DNA of 61,792 bases from NCBI GenBank assembly GCA_015061295.1, contig SUWU01000012.1, positions 1 through 61,792 of the forward strand, in the 5' to 3' direction. The translations under genes were made by a program, and so were the position numbers. Positions 46,736 to 60,759 of the stretch are shown in pieces (position 1 is the first letter of the stretch; every line of letters starts with the position of its first letter). Source of the stretch: Lentimicrobiaceae bacterium. Lineage in GTDB: Bacteria; Bacteroidota; Bacteroidia; Bacteroidales; F082. The notes beneath the pieces are model-generated. The model did not search any database. It was not told the origin of the DNA and saw only the letters and a program-made list of their open reading frames with translations.

Positions 46736-47458
46736 ATGACTGTAGATTTGTTTATATCGTGCATCATGGATCAGTTTTATCCTGATACTGCTAAAAATAT
46801 CGTCAAGATATTGAATGTTGCTGGTATAAATGTGGAATATAATTGTGAGCAGACTTGCTGCGGAAAATTTGCATTCTACAGTGGCTTTAAAGAAGAAGCC
46901 AAAGAACTTGGAGAGAAGTTTCTCAAAGATTTTCCCAACGACAGACCTATTATCGGCGTCAGCGCCTCATGCGTGGCATATATCAAGACCCGTTATCAAG
47001 AGTTGTTCTATAATACAGCATCACATTTAGAGTTTAAACGTCTGGTTCCTAACATATATGAGTTCACCGACTTCCTTGTAAACAAAATCAATCATCTTAA
47101 CTTTGGTTCTGAGTTTCCTCATAAAGTAGTATATCAAGATTGTTGCAGCTCATTACGCGACTTACATCTTCACGATGAAGGTCGCAGACTTCTCTCTGCT
47201 GTGAAAGGATTGGAGCTGGTAGAGATGCAGCGTCCTGAGTTATGTTGCGGCTTTGGCTCTGGTTTTTTCTCCATACAGCACGAAGCCATCTCCGTCGCTA
47301 TGGCTGAACGCAAGATACAAGATGCCATCTCATCAGGAGCAGAATATATCGCCACCAACGATATGGGCTGTCTGATGCAACTAAGCAGCTGCGCAAAGAA
47401 ACAAGGTTATAATATTGAAGTAGTCCACATCGCCGACATCTTGGCTCAGGGAATCTAA
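46736..47458 (+). CDS. (Fe-S)-binding CCG-domain protein (LutA/LldE-like)
   Basis: 240 residues from ATG 46736; a TTG two codons earlier is less likely. Two CCG cysteine-rich domains: VEYNCEQTCCGKFAFYSGF with SASCVAYIK, and VVYQDCCSS with RPELCCGFGSGFFS and TNDMGC. These CX(n)CCG motifs bind an iron-sulfur cluster. The family includes LutA of lactate oxidation and subunits of related oxidoreductases. LutB and LutC are not adjacent here, so a lactate role is only one option. Cytosolic. Confidence 0.85.
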   Translation: MTVDLFISCIMDQFYPDTAKNIVKILNVAGINVEYNCEQTCCGKFAFYSGFKEEAKELGEKFLKDFPNDRPIIGVSASCVAYIKTRYQELFYNTASHLEFKRLVPNIYEFTDFLVNKINHLNFGSEFPHKVVYQDCCSSLRDLHLHDEGRRLLSAVKGLELVEMQRPELCCGFGSGFFSIQHEAISVAMAERKIQDAISSGAEYIATNDMGCLMQLSSCAKKQGYNIEVVHIADILAQGI

Positions 47459-47484
47459 GACCATCAACATAAACTAATCATAAG

Positions 47485-47844
47485 TTGAAAGTCATTCTGA
47501 TTATATTTGGTTCTATCTCATTGATATTAGGCGTTATTGGCATTTTTCTTCCAATATTACCGACGACGCCCTTACTTCTTCTTTCTGCCTGGTGTTATTT
47601 CAAAAGCTCTGAGAAATTATACAACAGACTCATCAACAGCAAGCATTTAGGTTCATACATAAAAAACTTCAGAGAGAACAAGATGATCCCTCTGAAGACT
47701 AAAGTTTATATCATTACATTATTATGGCTCAGCTTGTTATATTGTATCTTCTTCGTTGCAGGCGAAATGCTCTGGCTGCAAATATTACTCGCCATAATAT
47801 TAATAGGAGTCACGATTCACATTCTTTCGTATAAGAGCAAATAA
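47485..47844 (+). CDS. DUF454 (YbaN-like) membrane protein
   Basis: 119 residues, starting with TTG (no ATG fits). Signature LGVIGIFLPILPTTPLLLLSAWCYFKSSEKLYNRL is diagnostic of DUF454, followed by a cytoplasmic loop and two more helices. Function unknown across bacteria. It lies 26 bases after the Fe-S protein gene and just upstream of palindrome R1. Confidence 0.85.
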   Translation: MKVILIIFGSISLILGVIGIFLPILPTTPLLLLSAWCYFKSSEKLYNRLINSKHLGSYIKNFRENKMIPLKTKVYIITLLWLSLLYCIFFVAGEMLWLQILLAIILIGVTIHILSYKSK

Positions 47845-47860
47845 GGTTTCATGTGGATAA

Positions 47861-47888
47861 TCCACACGTCCGTGTGACTCTACGGGAG
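47861..47888 (+). repeat. REP-like palindrome R1
   Basis: CACACG TC CGTGTG with the fixed flank ACTCTACGGGAG. It is the shortest-armed copy (the outer GT/AC pair is lost). It shares a further ~60 bases with R2 (ATTTTAGACATT, CCTTTTGTCGTTAGTC, TTAGACCTAA) and lies 77 bases past the ion channel stop. Confidence 0.85.
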
Positions 47889-47965
47889 ATGAGAATTTTA
47901 GACATTTGCCTTTTGTCGTTAGTCTTTAGTCTTTTGACTTTAGACCTAACATGTCTCGGCCTGCA

Positions 47966-49669
47966 TCAATATCCAAACTTCTTCACTTTCAAATCCGGAT
48001 CGTATTCTTTCCGAACATCGTTTTCAAAGTGCCTTTTGAGCGCGTCGGCTATTGTCTTTGCGATTTCAACACGGCGCGAATCCCAGAGACATGCGCTCCA
48101 GGCTATACGAAGGATTATATTATTGTCGCAACCTTTTCCTTCCTCGTATTTACGAACAAAAAGGTTTGATACTGAAGTGTTATGATAACGCTGATGATCT
48201 GAACTCATATCAAATTTAGATTCCAACTCGGCAGTCAAGTCTTCATAGAACTCACGATATGATTTAGTATCTTTCACGACAAGATTTTCGCCTTCAAAAG
48301 ATTCATCTCCTTTCTTACCACCTATTCCAAAGTGGAATATAGTAGGATATGAAGGCTCGTTTGCGCCGCTCGCCACAAGCGATGTCAAGGTCCAGCTACC
48401 TTCACGTGTCGTTAACTTCTCAAGGTCTTCCATATATAAAGGCAGATTCTCTTCATGATTATATCTATCTCCAAAAGTATAATATGAAGTATAAGGGCGC
48501 AACTCTCCTATCTCACGACTTATATAGTTAAAACCTCCGATAAGTGCCAAATAATATGAGAAGTTACCGATACAGGCATCAACAAGACTTGAAGGTGAAA
48601 CGATAGTTATCTTGGAATTTCTGTCGATGAAATATCCGTAAGGGCGATTCACTATGCAATGTTCTATTGCCAGGCTGTCTTGAGGATGTTCATCGATGGT
48701 TTGTGTCGTCGCGAGATTTATCAAACGGAACTCTTCAGACGATTCAACGGCGTCGAAAATATCATCGGTCTTCATTCCCATGCGAGCCTGAATGTCGCAG
48801 ATAGAAAGATATTGCGGAACAACTTGGAATCCTGTTGGTCTGTCGAGTTTGCGTTCGAAAGCTTTATGAAGTTTTTTGATATTATCTGCCACGTCCTCTT
48901 TATGCAGTTCATTTTCCATCGCCTCAGAAAAGCCTGCTCCTATAAGACCGGCAGGAACAGCGAACAATGCAATTCCTAAGATACCAATGACCGTTGCTAT
49001 CATCTTGCCAGCAAATGTAATTGGAGGAGTGTCAGCAAAACCTCCCGGGTCGCCGATGTATTGCGCAAATGCCCAGACAACAGATTTCCATCCATTGTCA
49101 TAGACATCTGGCTGCACCGCATGTTCATAAAAGAACAAGACAAAAGAAAGCATTATAGTGACAATTGCCAGAAACTGCAACGAAATCAGCATTTCCCTTG
49201 ATTTAGATGAAATGGCAATCTTTAGCAAGCGGAACGAACGCATATATCGGAACACTCGCAAAAGACGTAATACACGCAACGACTTCAAGATATAATACGG
49301 CAAAGGCAAGAATAACGACAGATAGAATGAATATGTCGATATAACATCGATGAATCCGTAGAATGTAAAACAATACCTCACCCTGCCCCAAAAGCCTTTA
49401 TACTTAGGGCTGATTTCATCGGCAGCCCAGATGCGAAGCGTGACTTCTATAGTGAAAACAACTACAGTGAAAATATCTATGACATTGAGTATCTTCTGAC
49501 ATAGAGGAGACACATCAAATGTAGATATGAATACTGAAATTGTGCTTATTACTATCAATCCTATAATAGCGTAATCCACATAATTTTCCCACTGCTTAGT
49601 GCGTAAATTATCATCAAAAACACTTGCTAGTTTCTTCTTAATTTGTTCTTTCTTTGTCATACAATTCAT
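47966..49669 (-). CDS. Ion channel with voltage-sensor-like helices, atypical filter, large C-domain
   Basis: 567 residues. Membrane part 1-250: S1-S3, an S4 with Arg every third position (LKSLRVLRLLRVFRYMRSFR, about 128-147), S5 (LQFLAIVTIMLSFVLFF), pore loop and S6 (MIATVIGILGIALFAVPAGLIGAGF). The filter position reads QYIGDPGGFAD (203-213) where K+ channels have TVGYGD, so selectivity is uncertain. The C-terminal 300 residues form an unrecognised soluble domain (ISPSSLVDACIGN-like segment, many aromatic residues). The gene overlaps pcp by 32 bases; a second ATG at 49660 would shorten this slightly. Confidence 0.8.
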   Translation of the reverse strand: MNCMTKKEQIKKKLASVFDDNLRTKQWENYVDYAIIGLIVISTISVFISTFDVSPLCQKILNVIDIFTVVVFTIEVTLRIWAADEISPKYKGFWGRVRYCFTFYGFIDVISTYSFYLSLFLPLPYYILKSLRVLRLLRVFRYMRSFRLLKIAISSKSREMLISLQFLAIVTIMLSFVLFFYEHAVQPDVYDNGWKSVVWAFAQYIGDPGGFADTPPITFAGKMIATVIGILGIALFAVPAGLIGAGFSEAMENELHKEDVADNIKKLHKAFERKLDRPTGFQVVPQYLSICDIQARMGMKTDDIFDAVESSEEFRLINLATTQTIDEHPQDSLAIEHCIVNRPYGYFIDRNSKITIVSPSSLVDACIGNFSYYLALIGGFNYISREIGELRPYTSYYTFGDRYNHEENLPLYMEDLEKLTTREGSWTLTSLVASGANEPSYPTIFHFGIGGKKGDESFEGENLVVKDTKSYREFYEDLTAELESKFDMSSDHQRYHNTSVSNLFVRKYEEGKGCDNNIILRIAWSACLWDSRRVEIAKTIADALKRHFENDVRKEYDPDLKVKKFGY

Positions 49670-50255
49670 TTATTAAAATTAAAACAGCTTTCACCATATC
49701 TGTCAGATTCAACCTTGGCTTTGATGGTTTCGCCGATGGTTGATCTTCATAAAACGGAAGATGAATGAATATGGCATTCATCGAAGGATTGTTTGAACAC
49801 GCCAGAAGCGCTTCATAATAAAATCTATTACAGACATATAATCCGCATGAATTAGATATCTTCACTTTAATATCTTGGTTCTCGATAGCAGAACATAATT
49901 TCTTTATAGGCAGACTTGTTCTTAAAGCAGCCGGTTTATCTTCATATATAAGTTCTTCGTCAGGACAATAGCCGTCATTGTCGCAAATCTTGGCATCCAT
50001 GAGGTTTAATGCGAAACGTTCTAATTTTATCTTCTCGCTTCCACCCGACTGTCCGAGCAAAATAATCAAATCAGGATTATGATTTGCTATGGCTTTATGA
50101 AGAGCATCAGCGACATGTGAAAAACTGACAGGCATCTGCTCTGTAACAATCTCGAATGCCTCACTTTTATATGAAGACAATATTTTCGCTACTTCCCATG
50201 ATGAATTCTCATGATAGTCCCAATATGGTTCAAAACCTGTTATTAGAATACGCAT
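49638..50255 (-). CDS. pcp: Pyroglutamyl-peptidase I-like
   Basis: 205 residues. Cysteine peptidase C15 that removes N-terminal pyroglutamate. Motifs: ILITGFEPYWDYHENSSWEVA, PDLIILLGQSGG, KISNSCGLYVCNRFYYEAL with the catalytic Cys, and AIFIHLPF with His. The usual Glu-containing segment (about ERFALNLMDAKICDN) is present. Occurrence in an operon with a nuclease and an ion channel is unusual for this enzyme. It ends inside the channel gene's start. Confidence 0.85.
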   Translation of the reverse strand: MRILITGFEPYWDYHENSSWEVAKILSSYKSEAFEIVTEQMPVSFSHVADALHKAIANHNPDLIILLGQSGGSEKIKLERFALNLMDAKICDNDGYCPDEELIYEDKPAALRTSLPIKKLCSAIENQDIKVKISNSCGLYVCNRFYYEALLACSNNPSMNAIFIHLPFYEDQPSAKPSKPRLNLTDMVKAVLILINELYDKERTN

Positions 50256-50272
50256 TTTATACTATTTTAAAA

Positions 50273-52288
50273 TCAAATCATTTCATTAAAATATTCCCAG
50301 ATGAAGACCATCGCGAGAGTGTCTAACTCACAATATCGTAGCAATGCCTCCTCTAAAGCCTTTGTAGCGACGTCATCGCTGAATTGCAGTTTGGAATATG
50401 CAGCCAAGGCCGCTCCTCCGTTGCACACCGACTCGTCTAAAGTGCTTTCATATCTCTTTATCTCGTCTTCATCAACATCCAGAAATTCAGATATTTTCTC
50501 GAGATGTTTGTATGGATTTTCCACATTTCCGTCTTCATCATAACTTATCCAAATCTTAGGATTCGTGCTGTCATAGTTCTGACTTATGATTTCCGTACCA
50601 TAAACAGGTCTCGAATACTTTTCTTTTAAAAGCCTGCTCGAATTAAGCACGGCAGGAAGCACAACCTTAATGGAATTACTTCCTTTCATTGATGGATGAT
50701 AATAGTATTTTTTTACCACATCCCACAAATCTATCATATCCCTCTCGCCCACATGCTCATCCTTATGTGTTATCGTATCAATGAAATCCATCAGCGCATT
50801 CTTATCACACTCTTCGCTTTTGTCGAGTTGTTCATAAATGCATCTGAGGATTGTATTCTCGTGGTTGGAATAACGGAACACCGAACCGTTGTCGTTTTCC
50901 AGCTGACGTTTCAGTTCTCTTATAAATTCAAAGTTAGGAAAGAATCCTTTCTTTGTGTTAAGATATTGACCGATATGTTTTATAGTTCCGTTTTTTTCGA
51001 TGATATGATGTGAAAACTGAAATGCCACTTGTTCATAAGGATGAAGTCCTTTATAGAAAGGTAGAGCTACGGAAGTAGTCTCGAAATCTATCATATGGAG
51101 AGGATACACCCATCCCGACATCTCTTTTCTTAATCCTTCAACGTCGATGTAAGTTCCATCTTTCAGATTAGGTTTAAAAGGTCGCATCATGTTGTCATTA
51201 TTCGTAGCCAACGCTATTTGCAGCAGCTTACGTTCAACATGATGCAATCCCTCAGATTCTTCTGACGGTTTAAAGTCACCTTCCGACAAGTCTTCCAGAA
51301 AATACTTTTCCTCGACGATAAATTTATTTCTTTTTATATATGCGCCCCATAAATCCTTCACAAGCGGTTTTTTAAAGTCTTCGTCTTTAAAACCAGCCAT
51401 CTCTTTCCAGCATTCCTTATAGCCGTCCTTAAGTCCCGACGGCGTTTCGTCTGTGGTATAGAAAGGACAAGAGAAACACTTAGAACCTATTTCTGTTTCG
51501 GCTTTTGTACGATTGCAATAATGCTGCGACATGGCGTTAACGAAAGGCACAAACGTATTGCCCATCACTTTATCCTGTTCGCCAGTCTCCCCTTTTATAA
51601 TCATATCGCAAATCTCATCCACGTCGAATGGCGTAAGTACGTGAGCCGCATTCCTAAGATTTTCTGCATCAGCTGTCCTTTCAATCTTAGACCTGTTATT
51701 TTTATCTTTGACGATGCGGAAACACTGGTTCATACCATCGACATCAGCCACTTTTCCTTTGTCGGCCATCATCAGAAACGCCTTCACTTTAAATTTCTTA
51801 TTAGGATATAAGTCTTTCAAAGCATTCACTACCACCCATTTCTGAAACGCCACATCATACAGATATTCCCTTATGCCGGAAGCCACCTCACCTTTCTTGT
51901 TCAGAAAACTATCTTCTTCAGTCCATGACTTAGCCTTGACCTCAACCAGCTCAATATCAGTTCCTGTTTTCTTCAGTATATCAACACGGACGAAACAGTC
52001 CTTATATCTGAAAGCAGCTTCAGCAATATTTACATCCGATAGCTTCAGACGCTCATTTGTTACATTTATCGAAGACTGATAATCTTTCTCTTTGATGTCG
52101 TTGGCATCATCCACGCCATAATATATTTTAGCCAACTCACCCACTTGGAAGCCGCCTTCCGCAAGAGCCATCAAGAAGCTATCGTCGTTATTTTGATTGG
52201 CATACGATTCATCGCCATAATAATAAAGTTGCCTTGGACATGTCAAGGCAACTTTAAATGCCGATTTTGTAAAAAGTTTCTGTTTCAT
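50273..52288 (-). CDS. DUF2779 protein: Cas4-like nuclease fused to DEDD-type exonuclease-like domain
   Basis: 671 residues. N-terminal part has a PD-(D/E)xK pattern: RVDIL (Asp103) and ELVEVKAK (Glu116, Lys118), with four cysteines for an Fe-S cluster as in Cas4/AddB: Cys17 (LTCPRQ), Cys258 or Cys271, Cys274 (CFSCPFY) and Cys294. The C-terminal part is the DUF2779 RNase H-like domain: MIDFETTSVALPF (401-403 DFE), YSNHENTIL, then MIDLWDVVKKYYYHPSMKGSNSIK. Together these predict a 5'/3' exonuclease acting on nucleic acid. No cas genes or CRISPR array are nearby. Confidence 0.85.
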   Translation of the reverse strand: MKQKLFTKSAFKVALTCPRQLYYYGDESYANQNNDDSFLMALAEGGFQVGELAKIYYGVDDANDIKEKDYQSSINVTNERLKLSDVNIAEAAFRYKDCFVRVDILKKTGTDIELVEVKAKSWTEEDSFLNKKGEVASGIREYLYDVAFQKWVVVNALKDLYPNKKFKVKAFLMMADKGKVADVDGMNQCFRIVKDKNNRSKIERTADAENLRNAAHVLTPFDVDEICDMIIKGETGEQDKVMGNTFVPFVNAMSQHYCNRTKAETEIGSKCFSCPFYTTDETPSGLKDGYKECWKEMAGFKDEDFKKPLVKDLWGAYIKRNKFIVEEKYFLEDLSEGDFKPSEESEGLHHVERKLLQIALATNNDNMMRPFKPNLKDGTYIDVEGLRKEMSGWVYPLHMIDFETTSVALPFYKGLHPYEQVAFQFSHHIIEKNGTIKHIGQYLNTKKGFFPNFEFIRELKRQLENDNGSVFRYSNHENTILRCIYEQLDKSEECDKNALMDFIDTITHKDEHVGERDMIDLWDVVKKYYYHPSMKGSNSIKVVLPAVLNSSRLLKEKYSRPVYGTEIISQNYDSTNPKIWISYDEDGNVENPYKHLEKISEFLDVDEDEIKRYESTLDESVCNGGAALAAYSKLQFSDDVATKALEEALLRYCELDTLAMVFIWEYFNEMI

Positions 52289-52332
52289 ATATAATATATT
52301 ACATTCAGAATCTTCATACTATCATCGAATGA

Positions 52333-52728
52333 TTATTTCCATTCATCTTTTTTGCAGCCGTCGGCTTCGCACTTTCTGTTAAATGAGCTCAAAGTCATAG
52401 CATCGCCTTTTTCTCCTGTATAGAAGCGTTTGCCTTCTGCTGTTGTATAACAAACTTGAGCATAGAGACCGAAGATTTCTTCGAATTCTCTTTCTAATGT
52501 GCGGATAAGCTTATTACCTGTAATAGTGATTGAACCAGGATTATTCTTAGTACGGACTTTAGCGATTGTTTGAGAATAATCGACTTTAGATATTGAACCA
52601 CCTGCTGCTACGGTTTCTTTATCACTCATAGGACAGATAGTCAATCTGAGAAATGGATATTTTTCATTGAATTCTCTAGCGAGAGTTTCTACTTTCTTGT
52701 TACCAGTAACGCTGATTTCTGCTGCCAT
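52333..52728 (-). CDS. Protein with internally duplicated domain, unknown
   Basis: 131 residues without signal or membrane parts. The sequence repeats itself: ISVTGNKKVETLAREFNEKYPFLRLTI (about 5-31) and ITITGNKLIRTLEREFEEIFGLYAQVCY (about 67-94), each strand-helix-strand with a conserved TGNK. This fold is shared by few proteins I know. It ends with a Cys pair CEADGCKKDEW. Between TerB-like and nuclease genes; co-transcribed by spacing (26 and 44 bases). Confidence 0.6.
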   Translation of the reverse strand: MAAEISVTGNKKVETLAREFNEKYPFLRLTICPMSDKETVAAGGSISKVDYSQTIAKVRTKNNPGSITITGNKLIRTLEREFEEIFGLYAQVCYTTAEGKRFYTGEKGDAMTLSSFNRKCEADGCKKDEWK

Positions 52729-52754
52729 AATTATAATATTTTAAAGATTAATAA

Positions 52755-53165
52755 TCAATATGCGAGTTCAATTTCTGGTTCTTCTCTGATAAGGTCAGCG
52801 AAAAGAAGAACTGCTTGCGCTTCATCGAGTCCGAGTGCTGATGCGATAGCGAGGACATTGTCGATTTCCTCAACGCCAACAACGCCGTCAATTGTGATAA
52901 TCTGAAGGGCTGCTTCATAAAGCATTGCTGCTTCATCGTCATCAACTTCTGCTGAATGTTCGAGGATGTAGTTATTAACTTGTTCTTCATCCATTGTTCC
53001 GAGTTCTGCCACAGCTGCGTCAATTTCTTGTGCGAATAAAGCAGCGTCAAGTTCGAAAGCTTCAGCGATTTCTCCTACAACGATTTTTTCTGCCTCGTCG
53101 TATTCTCCGTCAGCCCAGATTGCTGATGCAACTAAAGCTGCAATGTGTTTTATGTCTGTATTCAT
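52755..53165 (-). CDS. TerB-like protein
   Basis: 136 residues, all-helical and very acidic. Motif ALVASAIWADGEYDEAEKIVV (about 10-30) and the second helix pair IITIDGVVGVEEIDNVLAIASALGL match the TerB fold, including the Asp-containing turn that may bind metal. TerB domains occur in tellurite/stress and phage-resistance gene sets. This copy is single-domain; there is no TerC, TerD or TerE nearby, so tellurite resistance should not be assumed. Confidence 0.75.
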   Translation of the reverse strand: MNTDIKHIAALVASAIWADGEYDEAEKIVVGEIAEAFELDAALFAQEIDAAVAELGTMDEEQVNNYILEHSAEVDDDEAAMLYEAALQIITIDGVVGVEEIDNVLAIASALGLDEAQAVLLFADLIREEPEIELAY

Positions 53166-53178
53166 AGTGTTCTGTCTT

Positions 53179-53328
53179 TTACTTAAATAATCTTTTAATT
53201 CTGTTTTTCAAACTGTTTTTCTCTTTACGGGCTTTTGCCATGCGTTCGCAAATAGCTTTACCTTCCTTTGTGCGTTTGTCAACACTACCATCTTTGGTCT
53301 TCTTGACTGTAGTTTTCTTTACTGCCAT
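53179..53328 (-). CDS. Small basic protein, 49 residues
   Basis: Reading from ATG 53328 to TAA 53181-53179 gives a 49-residue, Lys/Arg-rich protein starting MAVKKTTVKKTKDGSV and ending NRIKRLFK. It sits 13 bases before the TerB-like gene and 23 bases after the next gene upstream, in the same direction. The N-terminus looks like a nucleic acid-binding tail. Not recognised. Confidence 0.6.
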   Translation of the reverse strand: MAVKKTTVKKTKDGSVDKRTKEGKAICERMAKARKEKNSLKNRIKRLFK

Positions 53329-53351
53329 AATTTTAATGTTTTATGTGATAA

Positions 53352-53597
53352 TTATTTTCTTAATCTTGCTAAAGATGCCTTAGCGGATTCAATCTCTCGT
53401 TTATATCTTTCGATATCACGGTCGTGACTAGCCGCAGCATCTACTTTAGATTTTCTCCAAGATGCTTTTGAAGATGGAGAGGTTGCACTCTTTATATATC
53501 TTGCATATCTCTCATTATCTCTCTTTTTCTCTTCTTTTTCTCTTGCGATAGCAGCACGCAAGTCGATAATCTTTTTTTTGTAATACTCTTTGCTCAT
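53352..53597 (-). CDS. Small coiled-coil protein, 81 residues
   Basis: A highly charged protein with long helix stretches: MSKEYYKKKIIDLRAAIAREKEEKKRDNERY and ESAKASLARLRK at the end, both heptad-like, joined by a Ser/Ala linker (KSATSPSSKASWRKSKVDAAAS). No membrane segment. First coding gene of the minus-strand accessory set; the RNA below precedes it. Confidence 0.65.
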   Translation of the reverse strand: MSKEYYKKKIIDLRAAIAREKEEKKRDNERYARYIKSATSPSSKASWRKSKVDAAASHDRDIERYKREIESAKASLARLRK

Positions 53598-53639
53598 AAT
53601 ACCCTGTATTTTATGGTTTAATTCATTATCAACATAAAC

Positions 53640-53888
53640 ACAATCTCCAAACTACATCTCTTTTCAGGAAAACACAAAAAAGAAACGTAGGCTCGTAACT
53701 CTTTTCTGATGATAGGTCCTAGGAAAACCGCGACAAGGAAAAAAGCAACAGCCTGCGCTAAAGCCAGCATACGTTGGGATACGTACGCACGAACCAGCGG
53801 AAGCATCTGCCATCTCTTGTCTTAATGAATTTCCTAGGTTCATCATCGAGAATGACAAACACTCACGTGTTAATCGAATTATGCTACA
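53640..53888 (-). ncRNA. Predicted rod-shaped structured RNA
   Basis: The 470-base gap 53598-54067 holds a long imperfect hairpin on the minus strand. Helices: 53842-53847/53708-53713 (GATGAT/ATCATC), 53830-53838/53718-53726 (CCTAGGAAA/TTTCCTAGG, perfect 9 bp), 53816-53821/53732-53737 (GACAAG/CTTGTC) and an 8-bp apical stem 53781-53788/53767-53774 with a 6-base loop. A -7 element at 53902-53895 gives a start about 53888. ORFs in it have no coding character. The rod with internal loops recalls 6S RNA, but I cannot confirm this. Ends are estimates. Confidence 0.5.
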
Positions 53889-53894
53889 CAAGGA

Positions 53895-53902
53895 CAAAAG
53901 TA
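53895..53902 (-). promoter_or_regulatory. -7 element of the structured RNA
   Basis: TACTTTTG on the minus strand, followed after some 10 bases by the region of the rod RNA. The -33 area is a T/A-rich run. Confidence 0.45.
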
Positions 53903-53989
53903 AATAAATATGTATATTTTAAAAATTTCTTTTTAGTTCTTTTTTGATTCTTTTCAGATTAGTCACTTTGTACATTCGGCGAATGAGCA

Positions 53990-54017
53990 GTCACACGTCC
54001 GTATGACTCTACGGGAG
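53990..54017 (+). repeat. REP-like palindrome R2
   Basis: GTCACACG TC CGTATGAC TCTACGGGAG, one arm position changed (G to A). It is preceded by ACTTTGTACATTCGGCGAATGAGCA, shared with R4, and followed by a ~60-base block shared with R1. Fifty bases past the stop of ATPase 1. Confidence 0.85.
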
Positions 54018-54067
54018 GCAAAGATTTTAGACATTCACCTTTTGTCGTTAGTCTTTTGACCTTAGAC

Positions 54068-55339
54068 CTAATAGGATTTATCACACAATAACCATTTCCA
54101 CAAAGGAACAATTTCAACAACTTTGTCATTGACTTCTATCGTTTGTTCTTCATTATAAGTAATTATAAGCAAGCGTTTTGCATTAAGATGCTTAGCGACT
54201 TTCAACAAAGATGAGACTTCACGATTTCTCGTTTCCGCATTTGCTATAGAATAAGCTACTTGTATCAAGCATTCCTGTGATGGAACATAAAAATCAACCT
54301 CAACATTTTTGTTATAGAAATACACCTCATCAAAAAAGTGCTTCTTCAACTCTATCGCAACCCTGTTTTCCAACAATGAAGTTTCTGAATCTATCAGAAA
54401 CAAATTCAATATACCATTGTCACGGAAATAGTATTTTTTCGAGCTCTCTTTTTCCGCGAACTTAGCAGCATAATTCGACATACTAAACAACAACCAACTA
54501 TCTTCCATAAATCGCACATAATCAATCACGGTAGAAGTCTGTATCTTCTGTCCTGCTGATGACACTATATTGGCAAGACGATTGAACGATGAAGGCTGGT
54601 TAATGCTTTCCGACATTTTTTTTACAAGAAGCTTCAAAGAAGTCTCGTTGCGCACTTTATATCGAGCAATTAAATCGCCAAGGAAAATCTTTTGAAAAAG
54701 CACCGACAACCAAGAGCGTTTTTCTACCAAACGGACACTTTCCGGGAAACCTCCGTAATAGAAATAAGATGGAAAAATACGCTGTATATGGTTCACTATT
54801 TCGGAATCATATTCCCAATTATTTTTTAAAATCAAATTATTAGCCTTTAGATATTCCACTAATGAATATGGATAAACTTCCTGAATCATATAACGTCCGC
54901 CCAAAGTAGTGGCGACCTCACTACTCAACATTTTGGCATTGCTACCTGTCAGATAGACTCTGTATTGCTCATTCGCCAATCTGCGAGCGAAATGCTCCCA
55001 ATGTGGTATATTTTGTATCTCGTCTAAAAAAATAATTGGTTTACAATCATTAAGTTGATAATGAGCTTGTAATATCGAATCCAAATCATCAAGAGTTATA
55101 TCAAACAAACGTTCATCATCTAAATTGACATAAACGATCTCATCCATCTGATGTCCGTCACGAAGCAGCTGATGAATCCTCTGATACATCAAATAAGACT
55201 TACCAGCTTGACGAAGACCTACAAACACATAATTCAGATTGTCATCCAATATAATATCACGCTCTACATACTCAATTCTACTTATCAGACGTCTATTGTC
55301 AGTGATGATTTTCTTTAATAACTCTATTTTCATATCCAT
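54068..55339 (-). CDS. AAA ATPase with DUF4143 domain (1)
   Basis: 423 residues from ATG 55339 (MDMKIELLKKIITDNRR). The frame is open to 55405, but the promoter and a tandem duplication lie there. Walker A FVGLRQAGKSYLM, Walker B IIFLDEIQN, then TGSNAKMLSSEVATTLGGRY (sensor region), and a C-terminal DUF4143 nuclease-like domain with VAIELKKHFFDEVYFYNKNVEVDFYV (Asp-Glu-like ExD pattern). These ATPases are frequent in anaerobic bacteria and often occur near toxin or defence genes. Substrate unknown. Confidence 0.85.
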   Translation of the reverse strand: MDMKIELLKKIITDNRRLISRIEYVERDIILDDNLNYVFVGLRQAGKSYLMYQRIHQLLRDGHQMDEIVYVNLDDERLFDITLDDLDSILQAHYQLNDCKPIIFLDEIQNIPHWEHFARRLANEQYRVYLTGSNAKMLSSEVATTLGGRYMIQEVYPYSLVEYLKANNLILKNNWEYDSEIVNHIQRIFPSYFYYGGFPESVRLVEKRSWLSVLFQKIFLGDLIARYKVRNETSLKLLVKKMSESINQPSSFNRLANIVSSAGQKIQTSTVIDYVRFMEDSWLLFSMSNYAAKFAEKESSKKYYFRDNGILNLFLIDSETSLLENRVAIELKKHFFDEVYFYNKNVEVDFYVPSQECLIQVAYSIANAETRNREVSSLLKVAKHLNAKRLLIITYNEEQTIEVNDKVVEIVPLWKWLLCDKSY

Positions 55340-55405
55340 TGTATTTTTATTTTTATGTATTATAACACATAAAATCATTGTATTTTTATACATTATAAAA
55401 CACAA
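55340..55405 (-). repeat. Tandem duplication of ATPase 1 start region
   Basis: TATAATGTATAAAAATACAATG then TATAATACATAAAAATAAAAATACAATG, a 31-35 base unit, each ending in ACAATG. The second ACAATG is the likely start codon context. The upstream in-frame ATG codons (M1, M5, M10) arise from this duplication. Confidence 0.65.
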
Positions 55406-55410
55406 AAATC

Positions 55411-55428
55411 ATACTACAAAAATAGTAT
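55411..55428 (-). promoter_or_regulatory. Palindrome over promoter of ATPase 1
   Basis: ATACTA CAAAAA TAGTAT is a perfect 6-bp inverted repeat with a 6-base centre, overlapping a minus-strand -7 element TATTTTTG (55424-55417). It has the look of an operator for a dimeric repressor. Confidence 0.5.
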
Positions 55429-55495
55429 TTTTTTATTTCCCCGCAAATTTTAAATGGCATTTCTTCCGATTTCCCGCAATTTATAAAAAATTGCA

Positions 55496-55523
55496 GTCAC
55501 ACGTCCGTGTGACTCTACGGGAG
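55496..55523 (+). repeat. REP-like palindrome R3
   Basis: GTCACACG TC CGTGTGAC TCTACGGGAG, perfect arms. Thirty-nine bases past the stop of ATPase 2. Confidence 0.9.
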
Positions 55524-55562
55524 ATGAGGACTTTTTATGAATATACTTCCTTTTTGATTGTA

Positions 55563-56864
55563 TCAAAGTTCATTTATCTTATCCAAAAGAAAATCTTCGA
55601 TATTGATATACTGCACGCCTTTGTCGTCGGTCCATGACAAAACATTATCACGTACCACTACAATTTTAGTATAAGAATCATCTATTCTATTTAAAGAATT
55701 AACTTCTTGCTTACGTTTATCTTCATCAGCCACTGTAAGAGCTGATTGAATATAATATCGTTTCTCCGTTTGATTAACGACAAAATCGACTTCCAACTGC
55801 GAACGTACTTTCTTGCCATTCTCATCTATGTGATTATATTCTACAACACCAACATCAACATTAAAACCTCTCGCAATGAGTTCATTGTAAATGATGTTTT
55901 CCATGATATGATTTTCTTCCTGTTGGCGAAAGTTGAGACGTGCATTCCTCAACCCAATGTCTGTAAAATAATATTTCAGCGGAGTGTCAATATACGAGCG
56001 ACCTTTTATGTCGTAACGATGTGACTTACACAGTATATAAGCGTCAATAAAACAATCCAAATACGTAGAAATAGTTTCATTCTTCACATTTAATCCTTTT
56101 ACAGATTTAAATGTATTTGACAATCGAGTTGGATTAGACAAAGACCCTACTGAAGACGCAACCACATTAAGTAATTCGTCAAGAACTTCAATGTTTGCTC
56201 GCAACCTATTTCGTTCTACTACATCTTTTATGTAAGTCAACCGAAATAATTCCTGCAAATATCTTGATTTTTCTTCATAAGTGCTTTTGTGCAAAACGTA
56301 TGGCATTCCTCCGAAAGTCATATACTCACGCCAAGCGTAACGTTTCTCATTCGGGTATGCAGCGTAAAACTCATCGTAGGTAAGAGGTGTAATATGAATC
56401 TCTTCTCCCCTATCTCTAAAAGCCGTAGCAACATCCGATGAAAGCATTTTGGAATTGCTACCAGTAACATAAACATCAACATGTGACAAACTTCTCAAGC
56501 CTAAAAGAACATCAACAAAAGTTATTTTAGAGTCTGATTCTTTTGGCATATAAGGATTCTTTATAGACTCAACCATCTGAATTTCATCCAACAGGATGTA
56601 ATAATCCATCTCAGTATTGGCAACTTTTTCACGAAGATATGCGCCTAATTCCAACGGATTACGATAACGCACATTAATGTCGTTATCCAATTCAACAGTT
56701 ATAATCTGTTCGGGAAGAACACCTTCTTGCAAAAGATAATCCCGATAAAGCACGCTAAGTAAATATGATTTACCGCAACGCCTAACGCCAGTTATTATTT
56801 TTACCTGACCATTCTTGCGACTATTGATAAGTTTTTGAAGATACCTGTTACGTTCTATTTTCAT
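55563..56864 (-). CDS. AAA ATPase with DUF4143 domain (2)
   Basis: 433 residues. Walker A GVRRCGKSYLLS (about 23-34), Walker B YYILLDEIQMVES, VYVTGSNSKMLSSDVATAFRDRG, middle helical domain, and a C-terminal DUF4143 domain ELIARGFNVDVGVVEYN...SQLEVDFVVN with paired strands and Asp. It is the same family as the neighbour but only about a quarter to a third alike by eye, so not a recent copy. Probably a single gene unit bounded by R3 and R4. Confidence 0.87.
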   Translation of the reverse strand: MKIERNRYLQKLINSRKNGQVKIITGVRRCGKSYLLSVLYRDYLLQEGVLPEQIITVELDNDINVRYRNPLELGAYLREKVANTEMDYYILLDEIQMVESIKNPYMPKESDSKITFVDVLLGLRSLSHVDVYVTGSNSKMLSSDVATAFRDRGEEIHITPLTYDEFYAAYPNEKRYAWREYMTFGGMPYVLHKSTYEEKSRYLQELFRLTYIKDVVERNRLRANIEVLDELLNVVASSVGSLSNPTRLSNTFKSVKGLNVKNETISTYLDCFIDAYILCKSHRYDIKGRSYIDTPLKYYFTDIGLRNARLNFRQQEENHIMENIIYNELIARGFNVDVGVVEYNHIDENGKKVRSQLEVDFVVNQTEKRYYIQSALTVADEDKRKQEVNSLNRIDDSYTKIVVVRDNVLSWTDDKGVQYINIEDFLLDKINEL

Positions 56865-56984
56865 AAATTAAGGGTTATTTTTGCGGTCATCCGCATTTTT
56901 ACCCTGCAAATATATAAAAAAAAAGATTAAATAAAACAAGAAAATACAGTAAAAAGTAAATAAAGATATAATGTCTTTTATACT

Positions 56985-57012
56985 TCGTCTGTCAACGGAC
57001 AACGGTCAACAG
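56985..57012. repeat. Short-period repeat (GTCAACGGACAAC)
   Basis: GTCAACGGACAACGGTCAACAG in the spacer between ATPase 2 and palindrome R4. The rest of the 217-base gap 56865-57081 is AT-rich (TTTTTTTT and A runs at 56915-56940). Confidence 0.6.
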
Positions 57013-57037
57013 ACTTTGTACATTCGATGAATGAGCA

Positions 57038-57065
57038 GTCACACGGACGTGTGACTCTACGGGAG
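57038..57065 (+). repeat. REP-like palindrome R4, inverted core
   Basis: GTCACACG GA CGTGTGAC TCTACGGGAG. The central dinucleotide is GA instead of TC, i.e. the reverse complement, while the flank keeps its direction. It is preceded by the same ACTTTGTACATTCG...GAATGAGCA as R2. Sixteen bases past the kinase stop. Confidence 0.9.
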
Positions 57066-57081
57066 GCGACACTAATTTCGA

Positions 57082-58218
57082 CTAATCATATTTCACCTTA
57101 ACCATATTGACAAATTCGTTATAAAACGCGTTATAATTTGAGGTCATCTCTAAGAAGGCTCTTTGTTTAAGTTCGTCGTCGGTGAGAGTATAAACTTTGT
57201 CGTTCATATATTGGGTATATTCTTCTGCAAATTCAGTCATCAATTTCGAATATTCTGAAAGTTCAATATAACCTTCAGCGTCAGTGTGTGATTTCAAGTC
57301 GTTTATGAAATCTTCAAAAAATGCTCTGATGTCGCTCTTTATCTCAGCAATCTTAGCTTCCTTAACCGCAATTTCTTTTCTCTCAGCATTTTCTTCTGAA
57401 AGATATAGATATGTAGGAAATGCCGCAACTAATAGAATCACAATAACAGCTAAGTTTTTCCAGACTTTATTTCTATCGTTCCATTTTCTTTGCAAGGAAC
57501 TTATATCTGGATAACGACTGCCGACATTTTCTTTTATACATTTATTAATAATACGTTTGTATCTTCCATCAAAAATATCTTGCATGATTATTCCGATGGA
57601 ATAAATGTCGCTGCGAGCGTCGATTTTTTGTTTTGACGTGGCAAGCCGCGTCCTTATATCTTGTGAAAGAAGTTCCGGAGATGCGTATCTCTGCGTGCAT
57701 CCTAATGTCTTCAAGACATAAAAGGCGTCATTGTCGGCGAGGCCGAAGTCGATTATCTTCAACGTGTTATCTGCTCTTGTAATGAGGATATTCTCCGGCT
57801 TCAGGTCGTTGTGTATTATTCCTCTTTTATGAAGATAATTGACAGCAGAGAGCAACTCACCGAAGATTCTCTGTTTTGTCTTCAGCGATGGTTTCTCCAA
57901 AAGGAATTCGTCTAATGTCCTTCCTTCTATATATTCCATCACAATTCCCTCGCCTTCTGGCAGATTTCTCTCGTATGTAAAAACATGCACGATGTTAGGA
58001 TTGTCGCAGCCTATTGAGATTTCATACTCGCGACGAAGCATCTTCTGCTGATACTCGGAATTGTCTTTTGTTGTCTTTATCAAGAAGTATTTTCCATCAC
58101 GACTAACACGCCACAACTTAGAATACGCTGTGGTTTTCAACAATTTATAATCGTGAAAATTATCATTATCTTTTTGTAAAAAGACTTCTTTCTCAAATAT
58201 TCCGCTCTCCTTCGTCAT
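57082..58218 (-). CDS. Membrane-anchored Ser/Thr protein kinase
   Basis: 378 residues. Kinase domain 20-240: VAIK-type Lys48 (YFLIKTTK), Glu64, catalytic loop IIHNDLKPEN (HND instead of HRD, Asp138), metal motif IDFGLAD (Asp157), activation segment TQRYASPEL and DARSDIYSIGII. The glycine-rich loop is poorly formed (LLKTTAYSKLWRV without GxGxxG). A membrane helix at 256-274 (LAVIVILLVAAFPTYLYL) leads to a helical extracytoplasmic domain. It probably phosphorylates regulators in response to an envelope signal. The divergent regulator-like gene at 58350 is the obvious partner. Confidence 0.87.
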   Translation of the reverse strand: MTKESGIFEKEVFLQKDNDNFHDYKLLKTTAYSKLWRVSRDGKYFLIKTTKDNSEYQQKMLRREYEISIGCDNPNIVHVFTYERNLPEGEGIVMEYIEGRTLDEFLLEKPSLKTKQRIFGELLSAVNYLHKRGIIHNDLKPENILITRADNTLKIIDFGLADNDAFYVLKTLGCTQRYASPELLSQDIRTRLATSKQKIDARSDIYSIGIIMQDIFDGRYKRIINKCIKENVGSRYPDISSLQRKWNDRNKVWKNLAVIVILLVAAFPTYLYLSEENAERKEIAVKEAKIAEIKSDIRAFFEDFINDLKSHTDAEGYIELSEYSKLMTEFAEEYTQYMNDKVYTLTDDELKQRAFLEMTSNYNAFYNEFVNMVKVKYD

Positions 58219-58300
58219 GATATATGTTTAGTCTGTCAAAAATAATCATATTTTTGTAATGAAAAAAAATAAATTAAAAACAAAGACAATGTACAATGAA

Positions 58301-58328
58301 GTCACACGTCCGTGTGACTCTACAAGAG
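58301..58328 (+). repeat. REP-like palindrome R5
   Basis: GTCACACG TC CGTGTGAC TCTACAAGAG; the flank differs in two bases from TACGGGAG. It lies in the divergent spacer before the gene at 58350, unlike R1-R4. Confidence 0.88.
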
Positions 58329-58349
58329 TTCGTTGTACCACAAAAAAAC

Positions 58350-58913
58350 ATGACTATAAAAAGCGACATACCTCAGATTTACGCCTTACGTGAGCGTGTG
58401 GAAGAAAAGTTGGGAAAGAAACTTAAAGTTCACTCCGACTTCGTTGAACTTACTTCACTCATCGAGATGGAGTTACGACAGCATATCTCAGAAACGACTT
58501 TGGAAAGAGTCTGGAATTATTCGACAAGAGCATACGATAGCGTCTCGTTAAGAACTCTTAACGTTTTGTCGCAATATGCTTCCAAGATGACTTGGGATTC
58601 TTTTTGCGAGATGTTAAGAAAAGAGAAAAAGATCGAATCGGAAGTCTTTAACGCAGAAATTATCACAACGAAATATCTTAATGTCGGCGACATCGTTCGT
58701 TTCAGTTGGCTTCCCGACAGGATATGCGAGGCGCGTTATCTTGGTAAAGATAGATTTGTCGCCGAGCATTGCGAGAACTCTACAATAAAAGCCGGCGACA
58801 CTTTTGTTTGCTCGCAGTTTATCTTAGGAAAAGAATTGCAAATGAATTTGCCCGACGCCAACATCTACATCGTAGGAAGAGAACATGGTTTGACTACATT
58901 GAGTAAAATCTGA
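58350..58913 (+). CDS. Helical N-domain protein next to kinase, unknown
   Basis: 187 residues from ATG 58350. The frame is open back to 58296 but those codons are palindrome R5 read in frame (HVRVTLQE), so the nearer ATG is used. The N-terminal half (YALRERVEEKLGKKLKVHSDFVELTSLIEMELRQHISETTLERVWNY) resembles the helical domain of Bacteroidota regulators paired with kinases or ATPases; the C-terminal half is a small beta barrel-like domain (VGDIVRFSWLPDRICEARYLG). DNA or RNA binding is plausible but unproven. Confidence 0.6.
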   Translation: MTIKSDIPQIYALRERVEEKLGKKLKVHSDFVELTSLIEMELRQHISETTLERVWNYSTRAYDSVSLRTLNVLSQYASKMTWDSFCEMLRKEKKIESEVFNAEIITTKYLNVGDIVRFSWLPDRICEARYLGKDRFVAEHCENSTIKAGDTFVCSQFILGKELQMNLPDANIYIVGREHGLTTLSKI

Positions 58914-59005
58914 AAAATTGAAAAACTGAGAAGCTGAAAAATTTCTCAGATTCTCAGATTCTCAATTTCTCAAATTCTCAGTTTCTCAGTTTCTCAGTTT
59001 CTCAG
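58905..59005. repeat. Octamer array and imperfect palindrome between convergent genes
   Basis: TCTGAAAAATTGAAAAACTGAGAAGCTG followed by repeated TTCTCAGA/TTTCTCAG units. The first half pairs with the second to make a long imperfect hairpin, and the second half contains CTCAGTTT about four times, the complement of the AAACTGAG array at 39.7 kb. It may end transcription on both strands. Confidence 0.75.
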
Positions 59006-60759
59006 TCTCTAATAACGAAAGTCCAAGCCGCATCGCTCTTCAAGTCGTTATATTTGAGCGGAGTAGTGTCGATAATCATCTTGCCGTCTTCATATCTCCA
59101 TGGTAAGATTTTCTCGCAGCCGAGCATTCTCACGACAGTATTTTCTTTCGGCTGTGGAATTTCAAGCACGAGTTCGTCTTGCGGAAATTCTATCGCGATA
59201 GCATATAAGTCATCGCCTTTTGTTGTGTAACATACGTAAGGTTGCTCGCATTTATATTCTGCTCTGAATCCATTCATCGGCTTTAAGATATATTTCGTCA
59301 TATATTTAGAAGAGACGAAAAGTCGCATCATAGCATCGATGTTTTTCTCCTGATATTCAACTTTGATGTTATAAGGCTCGCCAGCTTTCAGCTTAATCTT
59401 TCCCGATGTTGAGCTCCAGTTTTTCGCCATGTCGGCATCGCTCTGTTGTTCGTTGGCTTTAGTTGGATTATAGTCTATTATCACTTTATCATCGACGGTA
59501 ACTTTTACGTTGTCATCGACTTCTACTTCAAAAGTATATGTAGCAGTTTTTTCAGGGATGAAAATTCCGTTCCATGTAGCGCTGAAGTTATCGTAGCTTA
59601 TCGCTTTATCTGGCGAGTTACGATGCCAATTGAAGTCAATGACGGAGTCTGTTCTTGTGATAGAGACCTCCTTCATCTCGTAGAATTTATGATAAGGACG
59701 CGTCCCGTAGATAGCCTCGCCGTTTATCTCCAACCACTTACCGAGATCTAACAGTCTTTCCTGTTGTAACATCGGTATAATTCCGTCGGCTGCTGGTCCT
59801 ACGTTGAGCGTCATTCCACCTCCGGCAGCGACTGTCTTAGCGAAGTGACGAATCAATTCTTTAGAGGTGAGATAATTGGAGAGCGGCTCATTGCGATTAA
59901 GTGCGAAGGAGCGACCTATGCCGCGACATTCTGCCCAAGGACGATCGGTCTGAGTGATGCCTGCACTATATTCTGGAGTGCGGAATCCATGTTGCGCGCC
60001 GTGGCCCCAGCGGTCGTTGACGATAGCCTCCTCACCCACTGTGTTGTAATACCACGCTATCAGTTCTGCCGAATGCCATTGCTCAGCTGAGTTACGCCAT
60101 TCGCCGTCGGCAAAGATAATAGATGGACGATATTTTGTAACTAACTCCTTGAACTGCGGAATCATGTGGTTATCAACATAATTAGTTATGGAATCGTCTG
60201 GGTCGATATACCAGCGGTGCAAAGGATTAGTCCATTCAGGAAGCGAATAATAGAATCCCATTTTAAGACCTTCGGCCCGCACTGCATCGGTGAGTTCTCC
60301 CACTATGTCACGCTTCGGTCCGCCCACGACGCTGTTCCATTCTGGAGAATATTCGCTGTCCCAGAGACAATATCCGTCATGATGTTTAGTGACGAGAAGC
60401 ACATATTTCGCACCGCTCTTCTTGAATAAGTCTGCCCATTGTGTTGGTTCAAAGAGTTCTGCCTTAAAGAGTTTGTCGAAGTCGCGATAGGTGAAGTCCT
60501 CGCCGTAGTTTCTTTTTTGGAAGTTGATACGCGTCGTATCGCCGTTCATCAAGCCACTGTAATACCATTCGGCGTAGCCTTCGTTAGTAGCGAAAGCTGG
60601 AACGGAATACACTCCCCAGTGAATAAAGATTCCGAGTTTAGCGTCGGAGAACCACTGAGGATAAGCTCGTTGATTTAAAGATTCCCAGGTTGGCTCTACT
60701 TTCTGAGCGAAGCTTGATAATGCCAAGAAGCATATTAATAAGGTAAGGATTTTTTTCAT
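59002..60759 (-). CDS. Alpha-L-fucosidase (GH29) with PA14-like domain
   Basis: 585 residues. Signal peptide MKKILTLLICFLALSSFAQ, so secreted or periplasmic. GH29 barrel: LGIFIHWGVYSVPAF, YVLLVTKHHDGYCLWDS, GFYYSLPEW, and RPSIIFADGEWRNSAEQW with the nucleophile-type Asp in ADGEW. TAADGI-like GGGMTLNVGPAADG closes the barrel. After it a PA14-like module (ATWNGIFIPEKTATYTFEVEVDDNVKVTVDD) and a final beta domain. The enzyme releases alpha-linked fucose from host or plant glycans. No SusC/D pair nearby. Confidence 0.92.
   Translation of the reverse strand: MKKILTLLICFLALSSFAQKVEPTWESLNQRAYPQWFSDAKLGIFIHWGVYSVPAFATNEGYAEWYYSGLMNGDTTRINFQKRNYGEDFTYRDFDKLFKAELFEPTQWADLFKKSGAKYVLLVTKHHDGYCLWDSEYSPEWNSVVGGPKRDIVGELTDAVRAEGLKMGFYYSLPEWTNPLHRWYIDPDDSITNYVDNHMIPQFKELVTKYRPSIIFADGEWRNSAEQWHSAELIAWYYNTVGEEAIVNDRWGHGAQHGFRTPEYSAGITQTDRPWAECRGIGRSFALNRNEPLSNYLTSKELIRHFAKTVAAGGGMTLNVGPAADGIIPMLQQERLLDLGKWLEINGEAIYGTRPYHKFYEMKEVSITRTDSVIDFNWHRNSPDKAISYDNFSATWNGIFIPEKTATYTFEVEVDDNVKVTVDDKVIIDYNPTKANEQQSDADMAKNWSSTSGKIKLKAGEPYNIKVEYQEKNIDAMMRLFVSSKYMTKYILKPMNGFRAEYKCEQPYVCYTTKGDDLYAIAIEFPQDELVLEIPQPKENTVVRMLGCEKILPWRYEDGKMIIDTTPLKYNDLKSDAAWTFVIRD

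Follow-up and report, generated by a model that had tools for sequence, protein, structure and literature searches.

A stretch of 61,792 nucleotides from a Lentimicrobiaceae bacterium (GenBank assembly GCA_015061295.1, contig SUWU01000012.1; here we use "the window" throughout this paper to refer to this whole stretch) carries an array of small proteins, putative effectors and a structured RNA. As judged from sequence comparison, this array is a real, recurrent, modular and mosaic set of genes, most of which lie on the same strand, and we give about an even chance to its being a modular conflict (anti-phage) system linked to the envelope or membrane. From 53.9 down to 48.0 kb on the minus strand, the set comprises the structured RNA, a coiled-coil-like protein (cc81), a basic protein of 49 amino acids (aa), a TerB-like protein, the TGNK protein (T131), a DUF2779 protein, a pyroglutamyl peptidase (Pcp) and an ion channel, with the open reading frames (ORFs) of the last two overlapping by 32 bases. 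A preliminary description of this DNA had named the same eight elements, and all seven ORFs and the RNA were found at or near the places it gave. Its limits of the set were too narrow, because two AAA_14/DUF4143 genes and a Ser/Thr kinase lie 5' of the RNA on the same strand, followed by a divergent gene. The predicted array spans the region from the divergent gene and the kinase (58.9 kb) through the channel (48.0 kb).

Recurrence of the array was assessed by a profile scan of a genome collection with T131, which yielded 67 loci; families were delimited by ORF clustering and by family hidden Markov models (HMMs), from which cluster members with long X runs were left out. All 67 loci are titled with Bacteroidota names, and almost all derive from metagenome assemblies. 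The loci are not mutually independent, the families were defined on these same loci, and many loci are cut by contig ends. L040 is identical to the window and was excluded from the adjacency counts, the inside/outside gene set and the RNA duplex tests, and L058/L063 and L047/L050 are near copies. The most frequent families are T104, a sister T-domain family (54 of 67 loci), the channel (42), cc81 (41), T300 (39), T120 (38) and the divergent gene (32), followed by the kinase (27, by kinase domain alone), TerB (23), the basic protein (21), mem98 (21), Pcp (17) and KAP (16). Gene order is mosaic among loci, and orientation relative to the anchor is nearly constant for T104 (69 same strand/1 opposite), the channel (55/1), cc81 (40/1), T300 (40/0), TerB (23/0), the basic protein (24/0), Pcp (17/0) and KAP (17/2); it is not fixed for the divergent gene (13/20), AAA_14 (8/9) and DUF2779 (2/1). 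The preliminary description held that genes scattered in relatives would refute a joint system. Such scattering was not seen, and linkage of the small proteins, TerB, TGNK, Pcp, the channel and the RNA was found across Bacteroidota. Of the neighbours it singled out for co-occurrence, the TerB-like and TGNK genes are indeed linked, but DUF2779 occurs in 3 of the 67 loci.

The same linkage was met in genomes drawn across the order. T104 occurs sporadically (21 of 393 genomes at E ≤ 1e-8), and the channel was matched in 25 of the 393 (E ≤ 1e-30), at full length in 11 and by its pore part only in 14. In nine of the ten non-window genomes with a full-length channel, T104 stands 0.1-6.7 kb from it on one contig, and the tenth (G319) has no T104 match; the 14 genomes with only the short form serve as an internal control, since six of them also have T104 and none of the six has it on the same contig. 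The family cc81 was found in 15 of 386 genomes, and in 13 of the 14 non-window ones T104 lies 0.09-3.5 kb from the cc81 match (in G479 measured from a partial cc81 match; G464 has no T104 match). Nine stretches (L137-L145), picked because the channel and T104 stand on one contig, carry cc81 (9), T300 (8), Pcp (6), TerB (5), the divergent gene (5) and the kinase (4).

The channel consists of two parts. Residues ~20-265 are of the voltage-gated type and align with Kv7/KCNQ-type channels (E-value 1.9e-28), and the pore filter reads DPG in 41 of 41 aligned channels (the identical L040 copy among them) and GYGD in none. Residues ~308-552 have an N-formylglutamate-amidohydrolase-like fold by the fold criterion used; Pfam FGase was not among the matches up to an E-value of 0.1 for the window channel, and hhalign gave a probability of 0.7% against a thin three-sequence profile, with no trustworthy residue-level alignment. 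One histidine (H446) is conserved at a level of at least 85% in this C-terminal domain, as are several aspartate and glutamate residues. The single PHROGs match obtained is that of the channel to a family without known function. Peptidase genes adjoin the channel: 17 of 22 Pcp genes in channel-bearing loci lie within 300 bp of it, as do all seven M42-like genes, versus 0 of 21 TerB and 0 of 12 c10 genes. Pcp keeps a Glu, a Cys and a His in the alignment with 1aug, at the positions of the catalytic triad of family C15. It had been suspected that Pcp might be a housekeeping gene caught in the operon. This was rejected on a search of 18 of the 22 genomes bearing T104 or a full-length channel, in which Pcp occurs in seven genomes as a single copy, each time inside an array.

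The T domains could not be assigned to any named family of Pfam, NCBIfam, PHROG or PADLOC; PDB sequence searches with them gave nothing useful, and Foldseek searches of BFVD and PDB with T131 gave nothing at E ≤ 0.001. In relatives, T104 is fused to OmpA (2e-18) and T domains are fused to PspC (4.5e-20) or c15; none is fused in the window, where T300 also has no copy. One array gene at L078:3132-3797 encodes such a T domain fused to PspC. A further small family, TMYK (e.g. L141:12000-12386), has a doubled motif like GEYxI...GSIEVYRxYDN..GALREIAE..GF.YD..WNTRQFG, occurs in 16 of the 67 loci and also forms the C-terminus of a PDDEXK27-family protein. The TerB-like protein of the window scores 24.0 bits against a Pfam TerB cut-off of 24.4, and 23 of the 24 family members match Pfam TerB; a match to 2ou3 was also obtained (1.2e-4). 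The basic protein is encoded within 300 bp of 25 of 28 TerB genes. Weak PADLOC matches were recorded for cc81 (to PDC-S66, 0.0017) and TerB (to PDC-S48, 1.9e-4).

The kinase of the window keeps the HNDLKPEN and DFG motifs and, by eye, has a transmembrane-like segment. Together with its divergent neighbour it is found in many arrays, usually at the head, and in 22 of 27 kinase loci no more than 300 bp separate the two genes. Kinases were recounted by kinase domain alone, because the equation of the whole cluster STK with kinases had to be rejected: two members look, on reading by eye, like leucine-rich-repeat proteins that end in T115 or TMYK. Repeat proteins of this look, leucine-rich-like by eye and ending in T115 or TMYK domains, are encoded in arrays at L072:6174-7493 and L103:4898-6997. 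The divergent gene of the window has no Pfam match; one of 25 family members weakly matches Amidase_6 (0.0035), and a profile search gave weak matches alone, including MurR/RpiR-type regulators at 0.3.

The effector genes are variable cargo. DUF2779 had been proposed as the nuclease of the set, and as a core component it was rejected: it is the only one of the seven window proteins that hardly recurs, one of its three loci being the identical contig, and other arrays carry other nucleases. L044 has one DUF2779 gene inside the array, and L089 has one on the opposite strand, 8 kb off. The window protein is presumably Cas4-like at its N-terminus and DEDD-like, and a PDB sequence search with it gave nothing useful. 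In L036, a 62-codon ORF (L036:9950-10129; G053:C81, about 13955-14119) retains two parts of the window DUF2779 protein (residues 1-22 at 91% and residues 634-668 at 71%) close to a different, longer DUF2779-type gene, and it looks like a deletion relic. Single representatives of the cargo in relatives match PD-T4-3 (1.9e-49), UzuA (5.5e-66), PifA (3.5e-30) and QatA, and others match PDDEXK_4 and GIY_YIG_2; one of 39 further array genes is a PvuRts1I/SRA-type enzyme (PvuRts1I-type, 2.4e-78). By locus, the PD-T4-3 type occurs in 7 of 67, UzuA in 4, KAP in 16, PDDEXK_4 in 5 and GIY_YIG_2 in 6. On the kind of cargo, a role in defence appears plausible.

The stretch 53640-53890 folds at -86.5 kcal/mol, compared with -61.8 +/- 4.6 for shuffled sequences (z -5.4, with none of 200 equally stable), and both blastn and nhmmer locate the RNA in other arrays. 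A covariance model built on eight copies matches 21 of the 67 loci, 8 strongly (including L040) and 13 at E-values of 2e-8 to 4e-3. On 25 stretches outside model building, it found the RNA in 2 of 15 T104/channel stretches (L139, 3.8e-25; L145, 2.9e-6) and in none of 10 stretches from the same genus that had been retrieved for a different comparison. Rfam gives a tRNA alone for the window, and a permissive scan of 47000-59500 lists nothing over the RNA. Pairing is supported by double changes at 11 of 43 pairs, a count reached by 0 of 500 shuffles, and by compensation at 9 of 15 pairs, some with four pair types, on a structure-blind plain MAFFT alignment of 16 copies. Alignment A14 omits six of the 22 sense copies, and the pair counts of alignment A5 were not used, since it holds antisense rows and was fitted to the model. 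A TAnnTTTG box, which we take to be the Bacteroidales -7 element, lies within 90 nt 5' of the RNA in 15 of 23 copies, where shuffles predict 1.6, and a T-run follows 3' in 20 of 21 copies (L098 has none by the rule used). The segment before the T-run pairs with the apical 3' arm of the rod in 97.2% of cells (8 copies) versus 26-50% in slid controls, a value that letter shuffles reach in 75 of 500 cases. The duplexes beat shuffles at p < 0.05 in 17 of 20 copies (exceptions: window, 0.053; L085, 0.053; L078, 0.073), and the best partner is the apical 3' arm in 18 of 20, with another partner in the window and L078.

The likeliest role of this RNA is that of an attenuator, because the terminator and the rod apex would be mutually exclusive or pseudoknotted. 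A free-standing small RNA, or a ribonucleoprotein scaffold, that does not act in cis is a serious alternative, to which we give somewhat less than even weight: the RNA has its own promoter-like box and terminator-like 3' end, it is rod-shaped, and a pseudoknot between terminator arm and rod is possible. Against a free-standing RNA stand its position and its terminator. All 22 sense matches (window included) are on the array strand, with six antisense matches at the same places; the RNA sits 5' of the first T gene listed, often right after the kinase (which is elsewhere in L050, L058 and L063); and the terminator arm pairs with the rod apex rather than in a local hairpin.

Under the conflict-system reading, these components would work as follows. 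Envelope-anchored sensors, namely the kinase and those T-domain or related proteins that carry an OmpA or PspC fusion, would detect a disturbance of membrane or peptidoglycan; T domains, cc81 and TerB would serve as adaptors and bring effectors together at the membrane; and the effectors, DUF2779 here and GIY-YIG, PvuRts1I-type, PDDEXK or KAP proteins elsewhere, would attack invading DNA. The channel might depolarise the cell once a small N-blocked ligand, made or removed by Pcp or M42 peptidases, occupies its hydrolase-fold domain, and the RNA could be a leader attenuator that holds the array low until the trigger. In its most specific form, which is tentative and rather unlikely, the proposal is of a class of kinase-headed, RNA-attenuated, multi-effector immune arrays, in which tandem adaptors of ubiquitin-like fold would draw in exchangeable nucleases, KAP NTPases and membrane sensors, and the signature effector would be a non-K+ channel gated via a dead N-formylglutamate-amidohydrolase domain, with an N-blocked, glutamate-type ligand controlled by the adjoining Pcp or M42.

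Several observations weigh against the conflict-system reading. T131 is rare across the order (3 of 393 genomes), and no T131 relatives were found in scans of IMG/VR. The RNA and the kinase occur in only 21 and 27 of the 67 loci, respectively, the RNA was found in 2 of 9 arrays detected through T104, and DUF2779 is not core. Peptidases are not the only frequent neighbours of the channel, as omp22 (7/9), cc81 (16/42) and mem98 (8/20) also adjoin it. The T104 stretches L149-L151 (G227, G291 and G207) carry no channel, cc81, TerB or Pcp; in L149 a T300-like gene stands on the opposite strand, and L150 has T115 and a GIY-YIG-type gene. T104 lies away from full arrays there, and the distribution of the T domain thus extends beyond the array. 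PADLOC showed no clear difference between 39 unclassified genes inside arrays and 39 outside, with all 39 inside candidates compared to 39 of 106 outside ones (taken in random order, one long gene skipped) and loci with fewer than four array genes excluded. It is therefore the nature of the cargo and the patchy distribution, rather than counts, that speak for a role in defence.

PspC, TerB and OmpA would fit a role in envelope stress equally well. An array for envelope-stress homeostasis of the Psp/Ter type, in which the state of membrane and wall is sensed by the kinase, TerB and PspC- or OmpA-fused T proteins, the membrane is adjusted by the channel and KAP, and the nucleases hitch-hike, is possible but improbable on balance. 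The PspC and OmpA fusions, the presence of TerB in about a third of the loci (23/67) and the PADLOC result argue for it, and the recurrence of same-strand nuclease and restriction-type genes in arrays argues against it; the sporadic distribution of T104 and the swapping of content are also less typical of homeostasis.

A 26-base repeat built around a palindromic core is present five times in the window (at 47863, 53992, 55498, 57040 and 58303; 0 in 100 shuffles). Eight copies were found genome-wide (with up to 2 mismatches in a 22-base part), and the five here lie within 10.5 kb at block boundaries. The preliminary description saw two palindromes bracketing the set; that repeats mark boundaries holds, but there are five copies, not two, and they extend beyond the set. 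The exact palindrome core occurs in no fetched locus except two copies of this locus, and AAA_14 genes are found in 12 of the 67 loci, on either strand. The repeats appear to mark local insertions (the AAA_14 genes) and not the array in general. A recombination platform, that is, a hotspot for inserting and swapping small genes with palindromes as boundaries and no single joint function, would suit the clustered repeats and the mosaic order, but it is quite unlikely, since the palindrome core is so confined, the same families, strands and neighbour pairs recur (TerB-basic protein 25/28, M42-channel 7/7) and T domains are fused to partners.

The true start of the divergent gene is probably an ATG near 58350, because its first codons sit in a repeat copy (58303-58328) and the family consensus starts downstream. 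The 18 codons listed first (58296-58350) overlap the repeat, of which KSHVRVTLQEF is the translation, and similar repeat-coded peptides are seen in the ORFs listed at 47853 and 55239. The features of the array are collected in Table 1.

Table 1. Features of the array in the window, in 5' to 3' order of the minus strand; values are E-values
Feature	Position	Strand	Match or remark
Divergent conserved protein, family labelled HTH199	58296..58913	+	about 190-240 aa; DNA-binding only putative
Ser/Thr protein kinase	57082..58218	-	Pkinase 2.1e-33; PADLOC mad6 3.6e-40
AAA_14/DUF4143 ATPase	55563..56864	-	between repeat copies; not core
AAA_14/DUF4143 ATPase	54068..55405	-	between repeat copies; not core
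TACTTTTG box, TAnnTTTG type	53895..53902	-	5' of RNA
Rod-shaped structured RNA, conserved core	53700..53852	-	
Terminator-like segment	53676..53693	-	arm able to pair with rod 3' arm, then T-run
cc81	53352..53597	-	basic, coiled-coil-like, 81 aa
Basic protein	53179..53328	-	49 aa; conserved DKRTKEGK core
TerB-like protein	52755..53165	-	Pfam TerB 5.1e-5
TGNK protein (T131)	52333..52728	-	T-domain family; two beta-alpha-beta repeats
DUF2779 protein	50273..52288	-	DUF2779 5.4e-27; variable cargo, not core
Pyroglutamyl peptidase (C15), Pcp	49638..50255	-	Peptidase_C15 2.6e-46
Voltage-gated-type channel with C-terminal domain	47966..49669	-	Ion_trans 3.2e-21
Palindrome-bearing repeat copy	47863..47888		array 3' end

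The genome of the window comprises 2.1 Mb in 63 contigs, of which the window is contig C31. It carries a second array fragment (L147, G000:C51) with KAP, T104, a T104 fusion, T120 and AAA14 on a contig of 5.6 kb, and a 521-aa T104-domain protein on a further contig (L148, G000:C56). The same locus is present at 100% on a contig of Lentimicrobiaceae bacterium isolate SIG105. The contig of L037 (G052:C24) is also 100% identical at the window locus. A further copy of the LutA-like flanking gene, at 75%, stands elsewhere in that genome, on a different contig, and C24 has possibly been assigned to the wrong bin. A partial array is carried by Alistipes sp. An66 (L076), a cultured relative. In 10 loci of the same genus as the window, the flanking gene chosen for an empty-site comparison has surroundings other than those it has here.

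The preliminary description had offered the set as a candidate for an undescribed system, and the whole set indeed remained unmatched in the libraries searched. No paper on this array was found by title or abstract start among the open PubMed Central (PMC) papers listed; a prior description is possible, because preprints and subscription papers lay outside the scope of this search. The array appears to be new, as no named system known to us or found shares its core. If the proposed reading is true, it adds a large modular system, so far met almost only in gut, rumen and aquatic Bacteroidota metagenome assemblies, with an unlisted adaptor-domain family and an unlisted structured RNA at the operon head, and the channel-hydrolase fusion paired with a pyroglutamyl peptidase would mean that a long-known enzyme acts in signalling or immunity.

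Known systems resemble the array in part. In conflict systems coupled by effector-associated domains (EADs), as far as the consulted parts of the source describe them, small non-enzymatic domains are repeated in neighbouring genes, fused to varied effectors and predicted to be adaptors, some with OmpA-type wall-binding parts (Kaur et al., 2020, PMC7159879). In the same way, in relatives of the array a given small domain occurs by itself and also joined to different partners within a locus (T domains alone, or with OmpA, PspC or c15). Unlike the EAD-coupled systems in those parts, the window array proteins have no Pfam match to vWA-MoxR, GAP1 or iSTAND (relatives were partly scanned), and the array adds a structured RNA and a channel-peptidase pair, with T domains that belong to no named family. 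PspC, TerB, OmpA and membrane-proximal signalling parts are shared with phage shock protein (PSP)/PspC networks, again as the consulted parts of the source present them (Ravi et al., 2024, PMC11237479). In contrast to the PSP system, there is no PspA match in Pfam for the window array proteins, nor among the matches listed for the partly scanned relatives. Ter networks combine TerB with membrane-proximal signalling parts, and the array scans were not aimed at TerC and TerD. The array differs from PSP and Ter networks in its Ser/Thr kinase, T domains, channel, C15/M42 peptidases and nucleases.

Zorya combines an OmpA/MotB-like, wall-anchored membrane protein with nuclease effectors. T300 of L078 weakly matches ZorB (2.2e-5), by its OmpA part only, and the window is without T300; ZorA is not among the matches listed for the window array proteins (for the kinase, the best 25 of 37 families), nor is it listed among nine further proteins and 39 genes scanned from relatives. 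PD-T4-3, UzuA, PifA/KAP and PvuRts1I-type restriction enzymes are matched by single array genes of relatives, and by none in the window array, as interchangeable cargo in a larger array. Kv7/KCNQ-type channels align over the region given above, but the array channel has (G)DPG instead of GYGD and the extra hydrolase-fold domain. As far as the parts of the two sources consulted go, EAD-coupled conflict systems and PSP networks are the closest to the array in logic.

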